36,772 nt of DNA from an uncultured Clostridia bacterium (GTDB lineage Bacteria > Bacillota > Clostridia > Oscillospirales > Acutalibacteraceae). The stretch lies in NCBI GenBank assembly GCA_946186665.1, contig CAMHOE010000024.1, positions 1 through 36,772 of the forward strand, given 5' to 3'. A program made the translations under genes and the position numbers. This document shows, one piece after another, positions 10,802 to 36,759 of the stretch (the first letter of the stretch is position 1; each line of letters opens with the position of its first letter). The notes below the pieces were generated by a model that worked only from the letters and a program-made list of their open reading frames with translations, searched no databases and was not told the DNA's origin.

Positions 10802-10904
10802 AACCGGCAAGCTGCCGGTGCCAATTCGCGGCGCAAGGCTTGCGCACCCGACTCGCGCTGCGGCTTTAAATAAACAATAAATGATTGTGTCCGCGATTAC
10901 AACT
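10802..10904 (+). repeat. Repeat B fragment (B0)
   Basis: Partial 5' end of repeat family B: hairpins ACCGGCA/TGCCGGT and GCGCAA/TTGCGC, then the CACCCGACTCGCG and TGTCCGCGATTA segments shared with copies at 29121 and 36328. It lies directly before repeat A1. Confidence 0.65.
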
Positions 10905-10914
10905 TTTATCAGCG

Positions 10915-11022
10915 AAACTACAGACGTGTACAGCAATAGCCAAAGTTGCTCCCTGAGGAGCACGACGCGGACGGTTCAGTAAAAAGTATATGCGTTTTAA
11001 GTCGTCCAGTGCGGTCACGCAC
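10915..11022 (-). repeat. Repeat A copy 1
   Basis: A near full-length family A copy on the minus strand, starting immediately after the zapA stop codon (11023-11025). It contains GTGCG-TGAC-CGCAC and the GTGCTCC/GGAGCA hairpin, and ends at ACACGTCTGTAGTTT. It lies between zapA and the U32 gene in the same transcript direction. Confidence 0.8.
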
Positions 11023-12333: not shown

Positions 12334-12386
12334 GTGCGTGACCGCACTGGACGACTTAACAACGCATCTGCTTCTGATGGAACCGT
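12334..12386 (+). repeat. Repeat A copy 2 (truncated)
   Basis: Shares GTGCGTGACCGCACTGGAC through the AACCGT segment with other A copies, then diverges. It lies in the 420-bp divergent gap between the zinc-ribbon gene and glgP, about 80 bp before the glgP promoter. Confidence 0.7.
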
Positions 12387-16833: not shown

Positions 16834-16922
16834 CCCCTTCATCAAATTTTTATCCAGAGCACTCCAAGAGTACTTGATTCACAGTGCCTGCACTTCCCGG
16901 ACTGCAAACGTCTGCTTTTTGC

Positions 16923-16967
16923 ATTTCATCCGTGATAGTATAGTAAGCGACAATTATTTCTTTTTAA
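16923..16967 (+). repeat. Left 45-bp direct repeat of the XRE/lipoprotein islet
   Basis: Begins ATTTCATCCGTGATAGTATA and matches 18710-18754 at 44 of 45 positions. The pair brackets the divergent regulator/lipoprotein genes. Confidence 0.8.
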
Positions 16968-17042
16968 ATATTATTACCACTAATCGTTGACTTTTGCAGC
17001 TTTTCTCAACAGCTCATTATATTAGCCGCGCCAATCAAATGG

Positions 17043-17080
17043 CTAATAAAACAGCGTACCACAATCATCTGTGGTACGCT
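17043..17080 (-). terminator. Terminator of the XRE gene
   Basis: Stem AGCGTACCACA/TGTGGTACGCT with loop GATGAT, then GTTTTATT on the minus strand; it abuts the stop codon. The hairpin is the same, with one mismatch, as the lipoprotein terminator at 18671-18700. Confidence 0.8.
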
Positions 17081-17581: not shown

Positions 17582-18562
17582 ATGATTATGAAAAAAGTTA
17601 CGGCATTCTTGTTGGCTGTAACGACAGTAATGTCAATGTCAGTTTTCTTATGTTCATGTGGGGAACAACCTACAAATTCTAACAGCCAGAATTCCATTGA
17701 ACAATCTTCAAAAGAAACGGATATAGACAACAGCGAGGTATCTGAAGAAAGCACTGATACTGAACAGATATCTGAAAACGAATCTTCTGTAGTACCGGAA
17801 GTATCTAAGAAAACAGTTGAAAAAATCTCTCTGTCTGAAGCTTGTTATGACCTGACTGTTGAAAACGATTATACGGATTCTGTAGAAGAGAATCCTTATA
17901 ATCTTCCAGAATACAGAGTCAAAGAGGAATATGAAGAAAAAATCAATCAAGGACTTATGGAAATTGAGTATACTCAAAACGATGTTGTAAGATATGCAGT
18001 ATTAAAAAATGAAATTCCAGCCTACTCAACTGATACGGAAGTAATCCGTGCAGAGCCGATTCCATCAGGTTCAATAGTTGGCATAGTGTCTATGACATGT
18101 AGGTTTTATAAAATAGGTATGGAAAACGAAAAAGGTGGTATATGTTATACCTTTGAAATCTACAATAATGGCAGTACTTTTTCTTTATTAGAATATGTTA
18201 ATTATGCAGAATTTGATGAGGATACAAGTATCGAGCTAATCGAATATTTAGAGTTATTATCCCCTGATTATACTCCGAGTAGTTCAGATAATGTTTATGG
18301 AATGAGTGATGAAAACCAAATAAATATTTACGCAAAAGTTACGACCTGCGATTTACCAGATAATGAGCCCAAATCCTATATTGCTGCAAAATCATACTCA
18401 TTCGCAGAAATAGATGATCCGGATGTTATTACAAAAATTCAATCCGGAGAGACGGTTAGTGTATATAAAGAAGAAAAAGACTATTACATTTGCCAATATT
18501 ACAGCGACAAAGGGTATCGTATTGAAAAGTCATTTTTACAAGAAAATGACCAGAGTACATAA
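17582..18562 (+). CDS. Putative lipoprotein of unknown function
   Basis: A 326-residue secreted lipoprotein. The signal sequence MKKVTAFLLAVTTVMSMSVF is followed by a lipobox-like LCSC. Next comes a Ser/Glu/Asn-rich spacer to about residue 75, then a mixed alpha/beta region. The last ~60 residues (ITKIQSGETVSVYKEEKDYY onward) look like an SH3-like fold, but this is weak. I do not recognise the family. ATG at 17582 or 17588 could start it; AAAGG is 4 or 10 bases away. Codon use is AT-rich compared with neighbours. Divergent from the XRE regulator, with its own terminator. Confidence 0.88.
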   Translation: MIMKKVTAFLLAVTTVMSMSVFLCSCGEQPTNSNSQNSIEQSSKETDIDNSEVSEESTDTEQISENESSVVPEVSKKTVEKISLSEACYDLTVENDYTDSVEENPYNLPEYRVKEEYEEKINQGLMEIEYTQNDVVRYAVLKNEIPAYSTDTEVIRAEPIPSGSIVGIVSMTCRFYKIGMENEKGGICYTFEIYNNGSTFSLLEYVNYAEFDEDTSIELIEYLELLSPDYTPSSSDNVYGMSDENQINIYAKVTTCDLPDNEPKSYIAAKSYSFAEIDDPDVITKIQSGETVSVYKEEKDYYICQYYSDKGYRIEKSFLQENDQST

Positions 18563-18670
18563 TATAAAGCCAAAAACATGATACAAGTTACCGTATTCGT
18601 TTTAACAGCTTCTTAATGAACTTGCCTCATGTTAAATATCATATAACAAACATAATATCAGACTTTTATA

Positions 18671-18708
18671 ACAGCGTACCACAATCATCTGCGGTACGCT
18701 GTTTTTTA
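18671..18708 (+). terminator. Terminator of the lipoprotein gene
   Basis: Stem AGCGTACC.CA/TG.GGTACGCT with loop ATCATC, then GTTTTTTATA. Near identical to the XRE terminator. Confidence 0.85.
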
Positions 18709-18709
18709 T

Positions 18710-18754
18710 ATTTCATCCGTGATAGTATAGTAAGCGACAATCATTTCTTTTTAA
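18710..18754 (+). repeat. Right 45-bp direct repeat of the XRE/lipoprotein islet
   Basis: Matches 16923-16967 at 44 of 45 positions and starts one base after the terminator U-run. Confidence 0.8.
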
Positions 18755-18789
18755 GTCTTAAGTTTTAGCATTCATATATTTTTGTACCA

Positions 18790-18929
18790 CTTTCCACATT
18801 AAAACTATAGACGTGTGCAAAAATAGCCAAAGTGCTCCTCTATGGAGCACGACGCGGACAGTTCTATTGAAAGTTGATGCATTGTTAAGTCGTCCAGCGG
18901 GGTCACCCGCTCCGGTGCAGTCACGCACT
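18790..18929 (-). repeat. Repeat A copy 3
   Basis: A full family A copy on the minus strand whose first hairpin is duplicated: one version is GTGCG-TGAC-TGCAC and the second GCGGG-TGAC-CCCGC. The GTGCTCC/GGAGCAC hairpin and ACACGTCTATAGTTT end are present. It fills much of the 463-bp gap between the lipoprotein gene and the nifJ terminator. Confidence 0.8.
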
Positions 18930-22687: not shown

Positions 22688-22732
22688 GTGCTATTTTGTA
22701 AATAATAAATATTTTTTCTGCGGTGCGTGACC

Positions 22733-22840
22733 GCACTGGACGACTTAGAACGCATCTACATTTGTCTGAACCGTCCGCGTCGTGCCCCTATGGGGGGCAC
22801 TTTGGCTGCTACCGTACACGTCTACAGTTTCAATGTGGAA
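22733..22840 (+). repeat. Repeat A copy 4
   Basis: A clean full-length family A copy. Its second hairpin is GTGCCCC/GGGGCAC where other copies have GTGCTCC/GGAGCAC, a compensatory change. It ends AGTTTCAATGTGGAA and is followed by a heptamer array and inverted repeat B1. Confidence 0.85.
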
Positions 22841-22852
22841 AAAAAAATTAAA

Positions 22853-22887
22853 TGAATACTGAAAACTTAAAACTGAAAAATGAATAA
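22853..22887. repeat. Heptamer array between A4 and B1
   Basis: Units ATGAATA, CTGAAAA, CTTAAAA, CTGAAAA, ATGAATA in exact 7-bp register. Confidence 0.65.
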
Positions 22888-22889
22888 TA

Positions 22890-23387
22890 GTGGTACGTTT
22901 TCGCTAATGCGAAAACGAAATATAGTAAGTATAATATAAACTACAGTTTTATACTGTACAGGCGCATAAAGTTGAGTAAGTGAAAGAACTTTACGCCTAT
23001 AAGAAACAGCCAAAACAGCAGGCTCTTAGCCTGCGCCGGCGGATGGGGAATAGTGTCCTACAAGTCTGCGCCGCCAATCGCGGACAGGAAAATGTTAGGT
23101 CAGAATATCAGAGTGAGCTTTAGCGAACGCAAACGCGAATCGGGTGTGGCAGCACGTCAATCTAATTTGGAAATTATTTTGTTACTTTTCAGAATCAACC
23201 TTCTTTCTTGAGCTTGCCGAAAGGGCTTAAAGTGCGTTTTTTCTAATTAATTAAACCTGACAGGCATAGTAAAGTGTGCATAAGTCACTCAAAGATTATT
23301 CGCTTAACGCTCAAAATGACATCTTATTAAACTTTGTATCATTTTGATGTCTGAATTAGATTGACGTGGGTGTGGCAGCTTGCCACC
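22890..23387 (-). repeat. Repeat B copy 1, interrupted by a MITE-like insertion
   Basis: Read on the minus strand: H1 (GTGGCA/TGCCAC, split by the insertion), the CACCCGATTCGCG segment, H2 (GCAGGCT/AGCCTGC), TTTATGCGCC, ACTTACTATA and H3 (CGTTTTCGC/GCGAAAACG), then GTACCAC. Without the insertion it is about 270 bp. Confidence 0.8.
23154..23367. mobile_element. MITE-like insertion, 214 bp
   Basis: Terminal inverted repeats ACGTCAATCTAATT (23154-23167) and AATTAGATTGACGT (23354-23367) are perfect over 14 bp. GGGTGTGGCAGC is duplicated exactly on both sides (23142-23153 and 23368-23379). Depending on where the outer C/G is placed, it is a 15-bp repeat with a 10-bp duplication. There is no internal coding frame, so it must be moved in trans. 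It sits inside hairpin H1 of repeat B1 and ends about 10 bp before the ruvC promoter. Confidence 0.85.
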
Positions 23388-23416
23388 TTGCCAAAAAGTT
23401 GAATATGTAGTAGAAT
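23388..23416 (+). promoter_or_regulatory. Probable promoter of ruvC
   Basis: TTGCCA, 17-bp spacer, TAGAAT, 32 bases before the ruvC ATG. The -35 starts 8 bases after the MITE target duplication. Confidence 0.55.
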
Positions 23417-25437: not shown

Positions 25438-25465
25438 ACGGAGAGGTTCCCACACAAAAGCCTGA

Positions 25466-25703
25466 GACGTAAACAGTAATAGCCAAAGTGCTCCCATAGG
25501 AGCACGACGCGGACGGTTTAATTAGAAGTTGATGCGTTCTAAGTCGTCCAGTGCGGTCACGCACAGCACGACGCGGACGGTTTAATTAGAAGTTGATGCG
25601 TTCTAAGTCGTCCAGTGCGGTCACGCACAGCACGACGCGGACGGTTTAATTAGAAGTTGATGCGTTCTAAATCGTCCAGTGCGATCACGCACCGGTCACG
25701 CAC
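25466..25703 (-). repeat. Repeat A copy 5 with triple 64-bp tandem
   Basis: The 64-bp core is repeated three times with exact period (25501-25564, 25565-25628, 25629-25692) and only a few base changes in the last unit, followed by an extra CGGTCACGCAC. The GTGCTCC-CATA-GGAGCAC hairpin is at the left end. It fills the ruvA-ruvB gap. Confidence 0.9.
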
Positions 25704-29120: not shown

Positions 29121-29490
29121 CGCCGGCGCAGAGCCTGCGCACCCGATTCACGTTGGCGTTCGCTAAAGCTCACTCTGTTATTCTGACCGAACATTCATTG
29201 TCCGCGATTGACGGCGGCGCAAAGCTTGCGCACCCGATTCGCGGCGGCGTTCGCTTGCGCTCACTCTGTTATTCTGACCGAACATTCATTGTCCGCGATT
29301 AACGGCGCAGAACCGAAAGACACTTGTCCCCATCCGCTGGCGCAGCCCTTAGGGGCTGCTGTTTCGGCTATTTTTTCCAAACATACACTCCCTCCACTTC
29401 CTCGACTTCATGCGCCTATACAGTGTAAAGCTGTAATTTTTATTATACTTACTATAATTCGTTTTCGCATAAGCGAAAACGTACCACAAC
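29121..29490 (+). repeat. Repeat B copy 2a with internal 91-bp duplication
   Basis: H1 GCGCAG/CTGCGC, CACCCGATTCACG through TGTCCGCGATTGACGG, then the same segment repeated 91 bp later with H1 GCGCAA/TTGCGC; H2 GCAGCCC/GGGCTGC; TTCATGCGCC; H3 CGTTTTCGC/GCGAAAACG; GTACCACAAC. It fills most of the 585-bp gap between ispA and the FAD-dependent dehydrogenase gene. Confidence 0.85.
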
Positions 29491-29546
29491 CATTCACTAT
29501 TCACTATTTACTATTCACTATTCGTTATTCACCATTCACTATTCAC
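29491..29546. repeat. Heptamer array (TATTCAC family), eight units
   Basis: CATTCAC, TATTCAC, TATTTAC, TATTCAC, TATTCGT, TATTCAC, CATTCAC, TATTCAC directly after the GTACCACAAC end of repeat B2a. Confidence 0.85.
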
Positions 29547-29553
29547 TTTTTCC

Positions 29554-29677
29554 GGGCTGCTGTTTCATGTGAAAATATAAATCTTTTTCCTACTCAACTT
29601 TATGTGCCTGTACTGTGTGAAGTTGTAGTTTTTATTATACTTACTATAATTCGTTTTGCTTTAGCAAAACGTACCAC
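29554..29677 (+). repeat. Repeat B copy 2b (truncated 3' half)
   Basis: Starts in the second arm of H2 (GGGCTGCTGTTTC), then CAACTTTATGTGCC, ACTTACTATAATTCG and H3 CGTTTTGC/GCAAAACG with GTACCAC. H3 has lost one base pair from both arms compared with B2a. Confidence 0.8.
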
Positions 29678-34251: not shown

Positions 34252-34254
34252 GTT

Positions 34255-34312
34255 GTGGTACGTTTTTACTAACGTAAAAACGAATTATAGTAAGTGAAAT
34301 AATAACTACAGT
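34255..34312 (-). repeat. Repeat B copy 3 (truncated)
   Basis: Only the H3 end remains. H3 is CGTTTTTAC/GTAAAAACG where other copies have CGTTTTCGC/GCGAAAACG: two paired substitutions. Then CGAATTATAGTAAGT. Confidence 0.75.
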
Positions 34313-34374
34313 CTCTCCTCTGAGTGAAAGCGTCTTTAAAATGTGAAAATAGAATTGATCACTGACCATAAATC

Positions 34375-34458
34375 ACTATCTGCTAACCACTGACTACTAA
34401 CCACTGACTACTAACCACTGACTACTAACCACTAACTACTAACCACTAACCACTATTA
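34375..34458. repeat. Heptamer array (ACTAACC family), about twelve units
   Basis: Units ACTAACC, ACTGACT, ACTAACT in strict 7-bp register, with ACTAACC/ACTGACT alternating three times. The array runs into the ffh stop codon (34456-34458). It and repeat B3 fill the 330 bp between rpsP and ffh. Confidence 0.85.
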
Positions 34459-36291: not shown

Positions 36292-36320
36292 ATTATACAC
36301 CATTCCCCATCGTTTGTCAA
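36292..36320 (-). promoter_or_regulatory. Promoter of ylxM-ffh
   Basis: TTGACA, 17-bp spacer, TATAAT: exact consensus, leader about 45 bases. Repeat B4 begins 7 bp upstream. Confidence 0.85.
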
Positions 36321-36327
36321 GTGTGCA

Positions 36328-36620
36328 GGCGCAAAGTTTGCTCCCGGCGCAGAGCCTGCGCTCCCGATTCGCGGCGGCGTTCGCTAAAGCTCACTCTGAT
36401 AGTATGACCTCAACTTTTCCTGCCCGCGATTAACGGCGCAAACTTGCCGAAAATCCGTCCCCATCCGCCGGCGCAGCCTTAGGGCTGCTGTTTCGGCTGT
36501 TTTATCCGAGCAAAAAGTTTTTTCGCTCATTCAACTTTATGCGCCTGTGCTGTTTGAAGTTTTAGTTTTCTATTACACTTACTATAATTCGTTTTCGCCT
36601 AAGCGAAAACGTACCACAAC
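36328..36620 (+). repeat. Repeat B copy 4
   Basis: A full copy: H1 GCGCAG/CTGCGC, CCCGATTCGCGGCGGCG, CCCGCGATTAACGGCGC, H2 GCAGCC/GGCTGC, CAACTTTATGCGCC, ACTTACTATAATTCG, H3 CGTTTTCGC/GCGAAAACG, GTACCACAAC. It lies in the 534-bp stretch after ylxM. Confidence 0.85.
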
Positions 36621-36662
36621 TATTCACTATTCACTATTCACCATTCACTATTCACTATTTCC
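36621..36662. repeat. Heptamer array (TATTCAC family), six units
   Basis: TATTCAC x3, CATTCAC, TATTCAC, TATTTCC between repeat B4 and repeat A6. Confidence 0.8.
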
Positions 36663-36721
36663 GCACGACGCGGACGGTTCAAAAATAGCAGATGCGTTCT
36701 AAGTCGTCCTGTGCGGTCACG
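36663..36721 (-). repeat. Repeat A copy 6 (core only)
   Basis: GCACGACGCGGACGGTTC ... GATGCGTTCTAAGTCGTCC ... GTGCGGTCACGG, the 64-bp core without the second hairpin. Confidence 0.75.
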
Positions 36722-36729
36722 GAAATCAA

Positions 36730-36759
36730 TTTTCAAAAAAGTAGAAAATGTGATATAAT
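36730..36759 (+). promoter_or_regulatory. Possible promoter reading out of the right edge
   Basis: TTTTCA, 18-bp spacer, TATAAT. The ATG at 36766 is too close to be a start codon, so the gene lies beyond the window. Confidence 0.5.

Follow-up and report, generated by a model that had tools for sequence, protein, structure and literature searches.

The A and B repeats of this DNA are parts of a composite that is probably a non-autonomous, non-coding repeat of DNA palindromes, found at more than 100 places in the genome, comparable to BOX in build and copied as a unit. It is tied by position to the -35 boxes of promoters, and the same slot is also occupied by a 216-bp MITE, flanked by a TSD, whose promoter targeting is near-exact. 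We read the two as layers in a single slot. The older layer is a palindromic mosaic that ends at -35 boxes, and the younger is a MITE positioned by its distance from the -35. Such a system would make target choice by bacterial transposons through promoters directly testable, and it would show how sets of promoters can lose the control DNA upstream of them; a presumed LexA-site-like sequence, judged by eye, stands at ruvC in several relatives and is lacking in this genome.

Module architecture and copies of the composite

The full layout is B(n)-M1-M2-heptamers-C-A(n), varied via tandem and nested copies, with a B module of about 91 bp, an A module of about 64 bp, and M1, M2, a heptamer array, and C as the other parts. 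Within the window (the whole stretch of 36,772 nucleotides that was analyzed), the three places where a sequence-only reading had put A and B together (36328-36721, 22733-23387 on the minus strand, and 10802-11022) all exist, and modules were mapped in each (Table 1). That reading gave the three one arrangement, with B forward and A inverted; B does precede A in all of them, and the inversion is a matter of definition, since our models put A and B on the same strand. The second place is composite apart from the MITE inserted inside it. The description of all other copies as fragments proved too simple, given that tandem arrays, short B-C-A elements, longer forms, and nested duplications also occur. 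For this genome, the clusters and the module architecture support the proposal of a single non-coding composite element some 400 bp long. Elsewhere in the window, a 14-bp tandem array (34360-34455) adjoins the M2 fragment, and a reading frame of 326 aa (17582-18562) that lies between two repeat pairs (16912-17080 and 18667-18760) may represent another mobile element.

Table 1. Composite modules, MITE, and promoter features mapped in the window
Feature	Position	Strand	Remarks
Copy 3, 5' palindrome and B remnant	10802..10898	+	Profile match 10830-10861; earlier profile 10830-10898
Copy 3, module C	10905..10961	+	
Copy 3, module A	10960..11022	+	
Lone A	12334..12386	-	Preceded by bases resembling the B end (CCCGCGATTA)
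C-A without B	18792..18908	+	
Copy 2, module A	22723..22785	-	
Copy 2, module C	22788..22840	-	
Copy 2, module M2	22890..22965	-	
Copy 2, module M1	22984..23069	-	
Copy 2, module B	23071..23156	-	MITE interrupts terminal palindrome
Target duplication, left copy	23143..23152	+	10 bp, GGTGTGGCAG
MITE, 216 bp	23153..23368	+	TIR CACGTCAATCTAATT; 15-bp inverted ends
Target duplication, right copy	23369..23378	+	
Terminal palindrome GTGGCAGCTTGCCAC	23372..23386	.	Kept whole through target duplication
ruvC -35 box TTGCCA	23388..23393	+	-10 TAGAAT at 23411-23416; 19 nt from MITE edge
C then three tandem A	25452..25692	+	Between ruvA and ruvB; AAA at 25502-25692
B-B-M1-M2-heptamers-M2 copy	29125..29677	+	BB at 29125-29305
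M2 fragment with heptamers	34252..34312	-	
ylxM -35 box TTGACA	36315..36320	-	-10 at 36292-36297; spacer 17; 7 nt from trimmed element end
Copy 1, 5' end	36328..36345	+	Adjoins ylxM-ffh promoter
Copy 1, module B	36346..36436	+	Terminal palindrome GGCGCAGAGCCTGCGC and core CGTTCGCT..GCTCACTCTG
Copy 1, module M1	36438..36523	+	GCAGCC..GGCTGC hairpin
Copy 1, module M2	36541..36620	+	GTTTTCGC..GCGAAAAC hairpin
Copy 1, ATTCACT heptamer array	36619..36659	+	
Copy 1, module A	36663..36721	+	Terminal GTGCGGTCACG.. hairpin, final bases altered here

A covariance model for each of A and B, built from this genome alone, was run separately over its 2.55 Mb (101 contigs) and gave at least 150 listed matches for A (151 counted; 150 of 1100 candidates scored) and at least 142 for B (150 of 1220 candidates scored). 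These matches form 177 clusters, 60 with both modules, 61 with B only, and 56 with A only. B lies upstream of A on one strand in every one of the 60 shared clusters, none of the 177 mixes strands, and 63 of the 142 B matches have an A within 500 bp, all in the correct order and strand, compared with a mean of 9.8 and a maximum of 20 B matches in 200 runs of random placement. The fixed order and orientation claimed from the sequence alone thus hold up in this genome, where A and B are neither adjacent at chance frequency nor oriented at random. Whole or partial copies of the composite occupy well over 100 places in this rumen Ruminococcus genome. Copies of the composite or the MITE lie at or close to the ends of several contigs (C2, C3, C24, C36, C58, C61, and C93); assembly is probably interrupted by the repeats, which makes the copy numbers low estimates.

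Five module profiles, run over 423 kb of stretches holding 135 of the 177 clusters, delimited 147 clusters, four of them mixed in strand; the three of these four that were inspected involve only the palindromic M2 hairpin. The commonest forms are C A (14 clusters), B M1 M2 (13), B C A (8), and M2 alone (8), with B M1 C A (6), B C A M1 M2 (5), and B M1 M2 C A (5) among the further ones and B M1 C A M1 C A M2 as an example of nested duplication. For the short B-C-A form, the gap between B and A is 94 to 98 bp, a length found in 22 of the 65 gaps of up to 700 bp. Expansion can proceed at the B end by a palindrome-linker unit roughly 27 bp long and at the A end by the unit CGGTCACGCAC, and a period-7 array follows M2 in 49 of 73 copies (versus 25 of 2000 stretches drawn at random from the same sequences). 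Joints after A, read by eye, tend toward short shared stretches (e.g., CACC/GGCGCAG), which suits duplication and deletion, processes that by themselves preserve orientation. The composite appears to have been copied whole and to have been remodelled later through tandem duplication and through deletion between such stretches; the order of modules would be fixed because neither unit copying nor duplication and deletion can flip a module.

The hairpins invite another interpretation, also raised in the sequence-only reading, in which the composite is a structured non-coding RNA with accessory modules. Hairpins are conserved, changes in A, B, and M2 are double-sided, and in the genome RUG248 a B core is followed by modules that look similar by eye. 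In the four clear hairpins, 201 alignment cells hold a new Watson-Crick pair, 19 hold G:T, 21 A:C, and 16 other mismatches, pair counts that are inflated by the non-independence of cells from paralogous copies; for all seven helices the figures are 203, 45, 55, and 45, including 21 A:C from one badly aligned M1 helix and 22 G:T from one inner A helix. The stems do vary jointly, but as alleles. A:C is the wobble pair of the opposite strand, and an RNA maintained on the given strand would be expected to have an excess of G:T over A:C. The near equality of the two in the clear hairpins reveals no such strand bias, no Rfam family reaches its gathering cut-off in the window, a lax Rfam search of 36320-36730 returned only RT-11 at 18 bits against a cut-off of 143.5, and composite copies are oriented either way relative to genes. 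The RNA interpretation is thus not supported, and we consider it quite improbable.

Promoters at the B end of the composite

Promoters beside B and A ends were counted at a score cut-off of 9.5, genes being taken as long reading frames (no gene finder). Where a B end faces a gene start, it is followed by an outward promoter in 37 of 67 cases (shuffled, 1.9), and the -35 begins within 0 to 9 nt in 25 of them; for A ends facing a gene start the corresponding figures are 6 of 40 (shuffled, 1.8) and 1 of 40 (25/67 versus 1/40; Fisher, 1.6e-5). A looser threshold of 9 raises the B-end counts to 46 of 67, with 31 within 0 to 9 nt. Gene ends are faced by 27 of 94 B ends, with promoters at six of these and three within 0 to 9 nt, and for A ends on that side the counts are 4 of 51 and 0 of 51. 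From terminal palindrome to -35 the distance is 1 to 8 nt in 22 of 35 cases, with a mode of 3 and an overall range of 1 to 80 nt. In the frame of the element, the genes flanking B-first elements (n = 90; nine more lack one flank) are arranged as '<<' in 40, '<>' in 25, '><' in 15, and '>>' in 10, so that co-directional gene pairs are split 40 versus 10 by orientation (p = 2.4e-5). The same association extends to four other genomes with B (see below), where 28 of 52 B ends have a promoter (shuffled, 1.0), 11 of them within 0 to 9 nt, compared with 1 of 43 on the opposite side of B. In the genome G017, the repeat-poor contigs yielded no more than 19 promoters in a survey, too few to be informative. 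Another small palindrome (CCAGCGTCACGCTGG and variants) lies close to -35 boxes in the B-end flanks of contigs C7 and C11 and at locus L185 in G006.

The ylxM promoter offers a view of one such site in relatives. ylxM was matched in 59 of 64 genomes, and 30 orthologous loci were fetched, this genome included. TTGACA-N17-TATAAT is kept in 29 of the 30, and in a profile scan of these loci B, M1, and M2 occur only in this genome, and of the others L321 alone has an A match, a short one; the promoter is therefore old and the element a newcomer there. An element that carries its own promoter was rejected on the same 29 orthologues, and the presence in many of them of a promoter with a G-rich spacer means that the G-rich spacers seen earlier, in a comparison with only 10 control promoters, need not be special. 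At ruvC, B or A matches somewhere in the locus in 6 of 29 other fetched loci, and by eye L164, L165, L172, and L175 carry a match just upstream of the -35.

From its dispersal and its absence at an orthologous promoter, we infer that the composite is mobile. The 44 B..A elements have no target duplication (mean shared stretch of 3.93, versus 4.08 by chance), and a transposase search of the composite's own genome found no enzyme that moves it. Together with the many tandem repeats, these two results agree with a history free of mobility, in which founders that arose by chance multiplied through nothing but ordinary recombination and slippage, but the 177 A and/or B clusters and the absence of the element from relatives' orthologous promoters suggest dispersal to new sites, and we regard that history as highly improbable. 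Selection offers another account: the composite could be a cis-acting DNA element whose B-end palindrome serves as a regulator-binding site or as an insulator between divergent promoters, as the 1- to 8-nt spacing of the B end from the -35, the orientation bias, and the coordinated stem changes might indicate. We think this unlikely, because palindrome sequence and spacing vary (1 to 80 nt, several hairpin alleles), B, M1, and M2 are absent from all 29 of the other ylxM loci fetched, 28 of which retain the promoter, and many B ends (27/94) face gene ends.

A MITE in the slot upstream of the -35

The MITE in the window splits the terminal palindrome of the composite and lies 19 nt from the -35 box of ruvC. 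All listed copies, 24 full or nearly full and two partial, are 100% identical after rounding. Target duplications of 9 to 10 bp flank 22 of the 23 readable targets (none at L361); a composite module is present at the target in 16 of 23 at E < 0.01, some weakly, and a hairpin stem of at least 5 at the site in 11 of 23. In its 15-bp TIR, its target duplications, and its near-identical copies the 216-bp element is like other MITEs, and it differs from them in standing mostly at a fixed 19-nt distance from a -35 box. Distances were counted for 33 sites, i.e., the 24 copies (both flanks) and nine further ends (contig ends, C39, and C41), with promoter scores of at least 9. The distance from the edge of the MITE or related end to the start of the -35 is exactly 19 nt in 22 of the 33 and 18 to 20 nt in 25, every other distance occurring at most twice; the sites that miss the 18- to 20-nt range are L344, L345, L346, L350, L360, L363, L378, and L379, the last two having a single side present in the assembly. 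By a looser score, 20 of the 24 MITE copies have a promoter near 19 nt (shuffled flanks: mean, 6.7; maximum, 13). We take this placement of the MITE and of the ends of the same kind as promoter-targeted insertion. The idea of a MITE that seeks hairpins was dropped because sites without a module match (L347, L353, L356, L361, and L367) also stand at 18 to 20 nt.

Six further ends carry a TIR with a one-base variant, mostly at contig ends, and are probably those of a larger element; its body was not found, and such an end also occurs in RUG248 (L232). The 14 smallest contigs contain no TIR-like string, and an IS transposase was not recovered, with no plasmid match and with 15-mer matches in viral contigs that were judged to be chance. 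A narrow search of titles and abstract openings, largely from non-subscription journals, returned nothing fitting on promoter-targeted bacterial insertion. At L380 (contig C39, 400-1885) and L389, a single MITE or IS end lies 19 nt from TTGACA beside a long CRISPR-like array, and neighboring reading frames look like cas genes (by appearance only).

The slot just upstream of the -35 seems to be a landing place, as the MITE and its related ends lie mostly 19 nt from that box. Tentatively, we propose that promoters in this lineage may serve as landing pads. Integration of the IS/MITE would occur at a set distance from the -35 (10-bp target, 9 bp upstream), guided perhaps by the -35 hexamer itself or by RNA polymerase bound at the promoter, and the composite would have arrived by a related promoter-guided route. 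Its mover could conceivably act through hairpin recognition on single-stranded DNA. Weighing against the reading of the composite as a non-autonomous repeat copied as a unit are its missing TSD and mover, the B ends that face a gene end (27/94), and the loci in G071 with A on both strands.

Relatives and comparable repeat families

Among 64 genomes of the genus, under stricter filters and with capped scoring, the B model matches at least 35 and the A model at least four (this one, G071, G043, and G012). Among the matches listed for a 398-bp composite DNA query in 40 genomes, its own included (17 candidates scored per genome), only those from this genome are long, and those from relatives are short pieces. 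Eighteen A loci were fetched from G071, G043, and G012, three of which also hold B, always on one strand: L244 (G012) reads B-C-A, L255 (G043) B then A, and L251 (G043) A then B. At L243 and L260 (G071), A modules stand side by side on both strands, unlike the fixed orientation in the window genome. The arrangement proposed from the sequence is thus less clear-cut in relatives, where two loci follow it, one reverses the order, and two mix strands. An exact B pattern found 54 stretches in four other genomes only (searched in genome_contigs, from which the records closest to the window may be absent), namely, RUG248, RUG13152, RUG757, and RUG11818, which we take from their RUG names to be rumen genomes. 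In RUG13152, two clusters have A model matches beside B on the opposite strand, which we read as end units resembling the terminal palindrome of A in reverse; in the window genome, an A-type hairpin lies within 130 nt of a B end in 0 of 99 elements. The genomes compared include no closely related strain and hence provide no true empty site for the composite.

We know of no settled mover or purpose for modular intergenic repeats such as BOX. BOX of Streptococcus pneumoniae is a modular, non-coding, hairpin-forming repeat of the form boxA-boxB(n)-boxC that has TIR and causes TSDs, and in S. suis different end modules surround a common boxB (PMC3049150). The composite shares the fixed order of end modules around a variable tandem module, and its B, common to several species with differing partners, parallels the boxB of S. 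suis. It differs in that no TIR or TSD was detected (44 elements), and in having more module types, palindromes at both ends, and a B end docked on the -35; the likeness is one of build. Because TIR and TSDs define BOX, we do not file the composite there, although it works like BOX.

The sources on REPs and REPINs describe high-copy extragenic palindromes with coordinated stem changes, as in the composite, and CGTC REPs that also have no dedicated transposase (PMC3733652, PMC3116915). REPINs, however, are inverted doublets, whereas the composite is a directional multi-module unit, and REPs lie mostly downstream of genes (PMC3733652), whereas the B end prefers gene starts. CGTC REPs have CGTC beside a stem of 8 to 9 bp (PMC3733652); the CGTC of A precedes CA and a stem of only 5 bp, which places A outside that class. 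The strings clostrid, firmicutes, and ruminococc have no mention in the available text of PMC3733652. GTAG REPs and REPINs were rejected, there being no clear association with RAYT and an inverted doublet of one palindrome in 0 of 99 elements. Scored for presence only, RAYT/Y1 transposases gave two matches in the composite's own genome, one with a stop and one under the cut-off, and none in six other genomes with A or B (G071, G043, G066, G054, G059, and G040); among B-rich genomes, G041 has five and G017 one. Phage origin was set aside after the exact A pattern gave no matches in viral_contigs. Titles and abstract openings, largely from non-subscription journals, showed nothing fitting on repeats of Ruminococcus or Faecalibacterium.

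Cyanobacteria have small dispersed repeats that sit as tiny inserts in other repeats, with heptamer STRRs alongside, which resembles the inserts and arrays of the composite. Complementarity between A and B (CGCGGAC/GTCCGCG) was also seen. One 24-nt insert, CCCCAAGGGCACTTCCTACGGG, has 30 pattern matches in the 423 kb, every one in a hairpin loop and all 30 in a single direction; by hand count its hosts are the B core (20), M2 (7), and the B-end palindrome (3).
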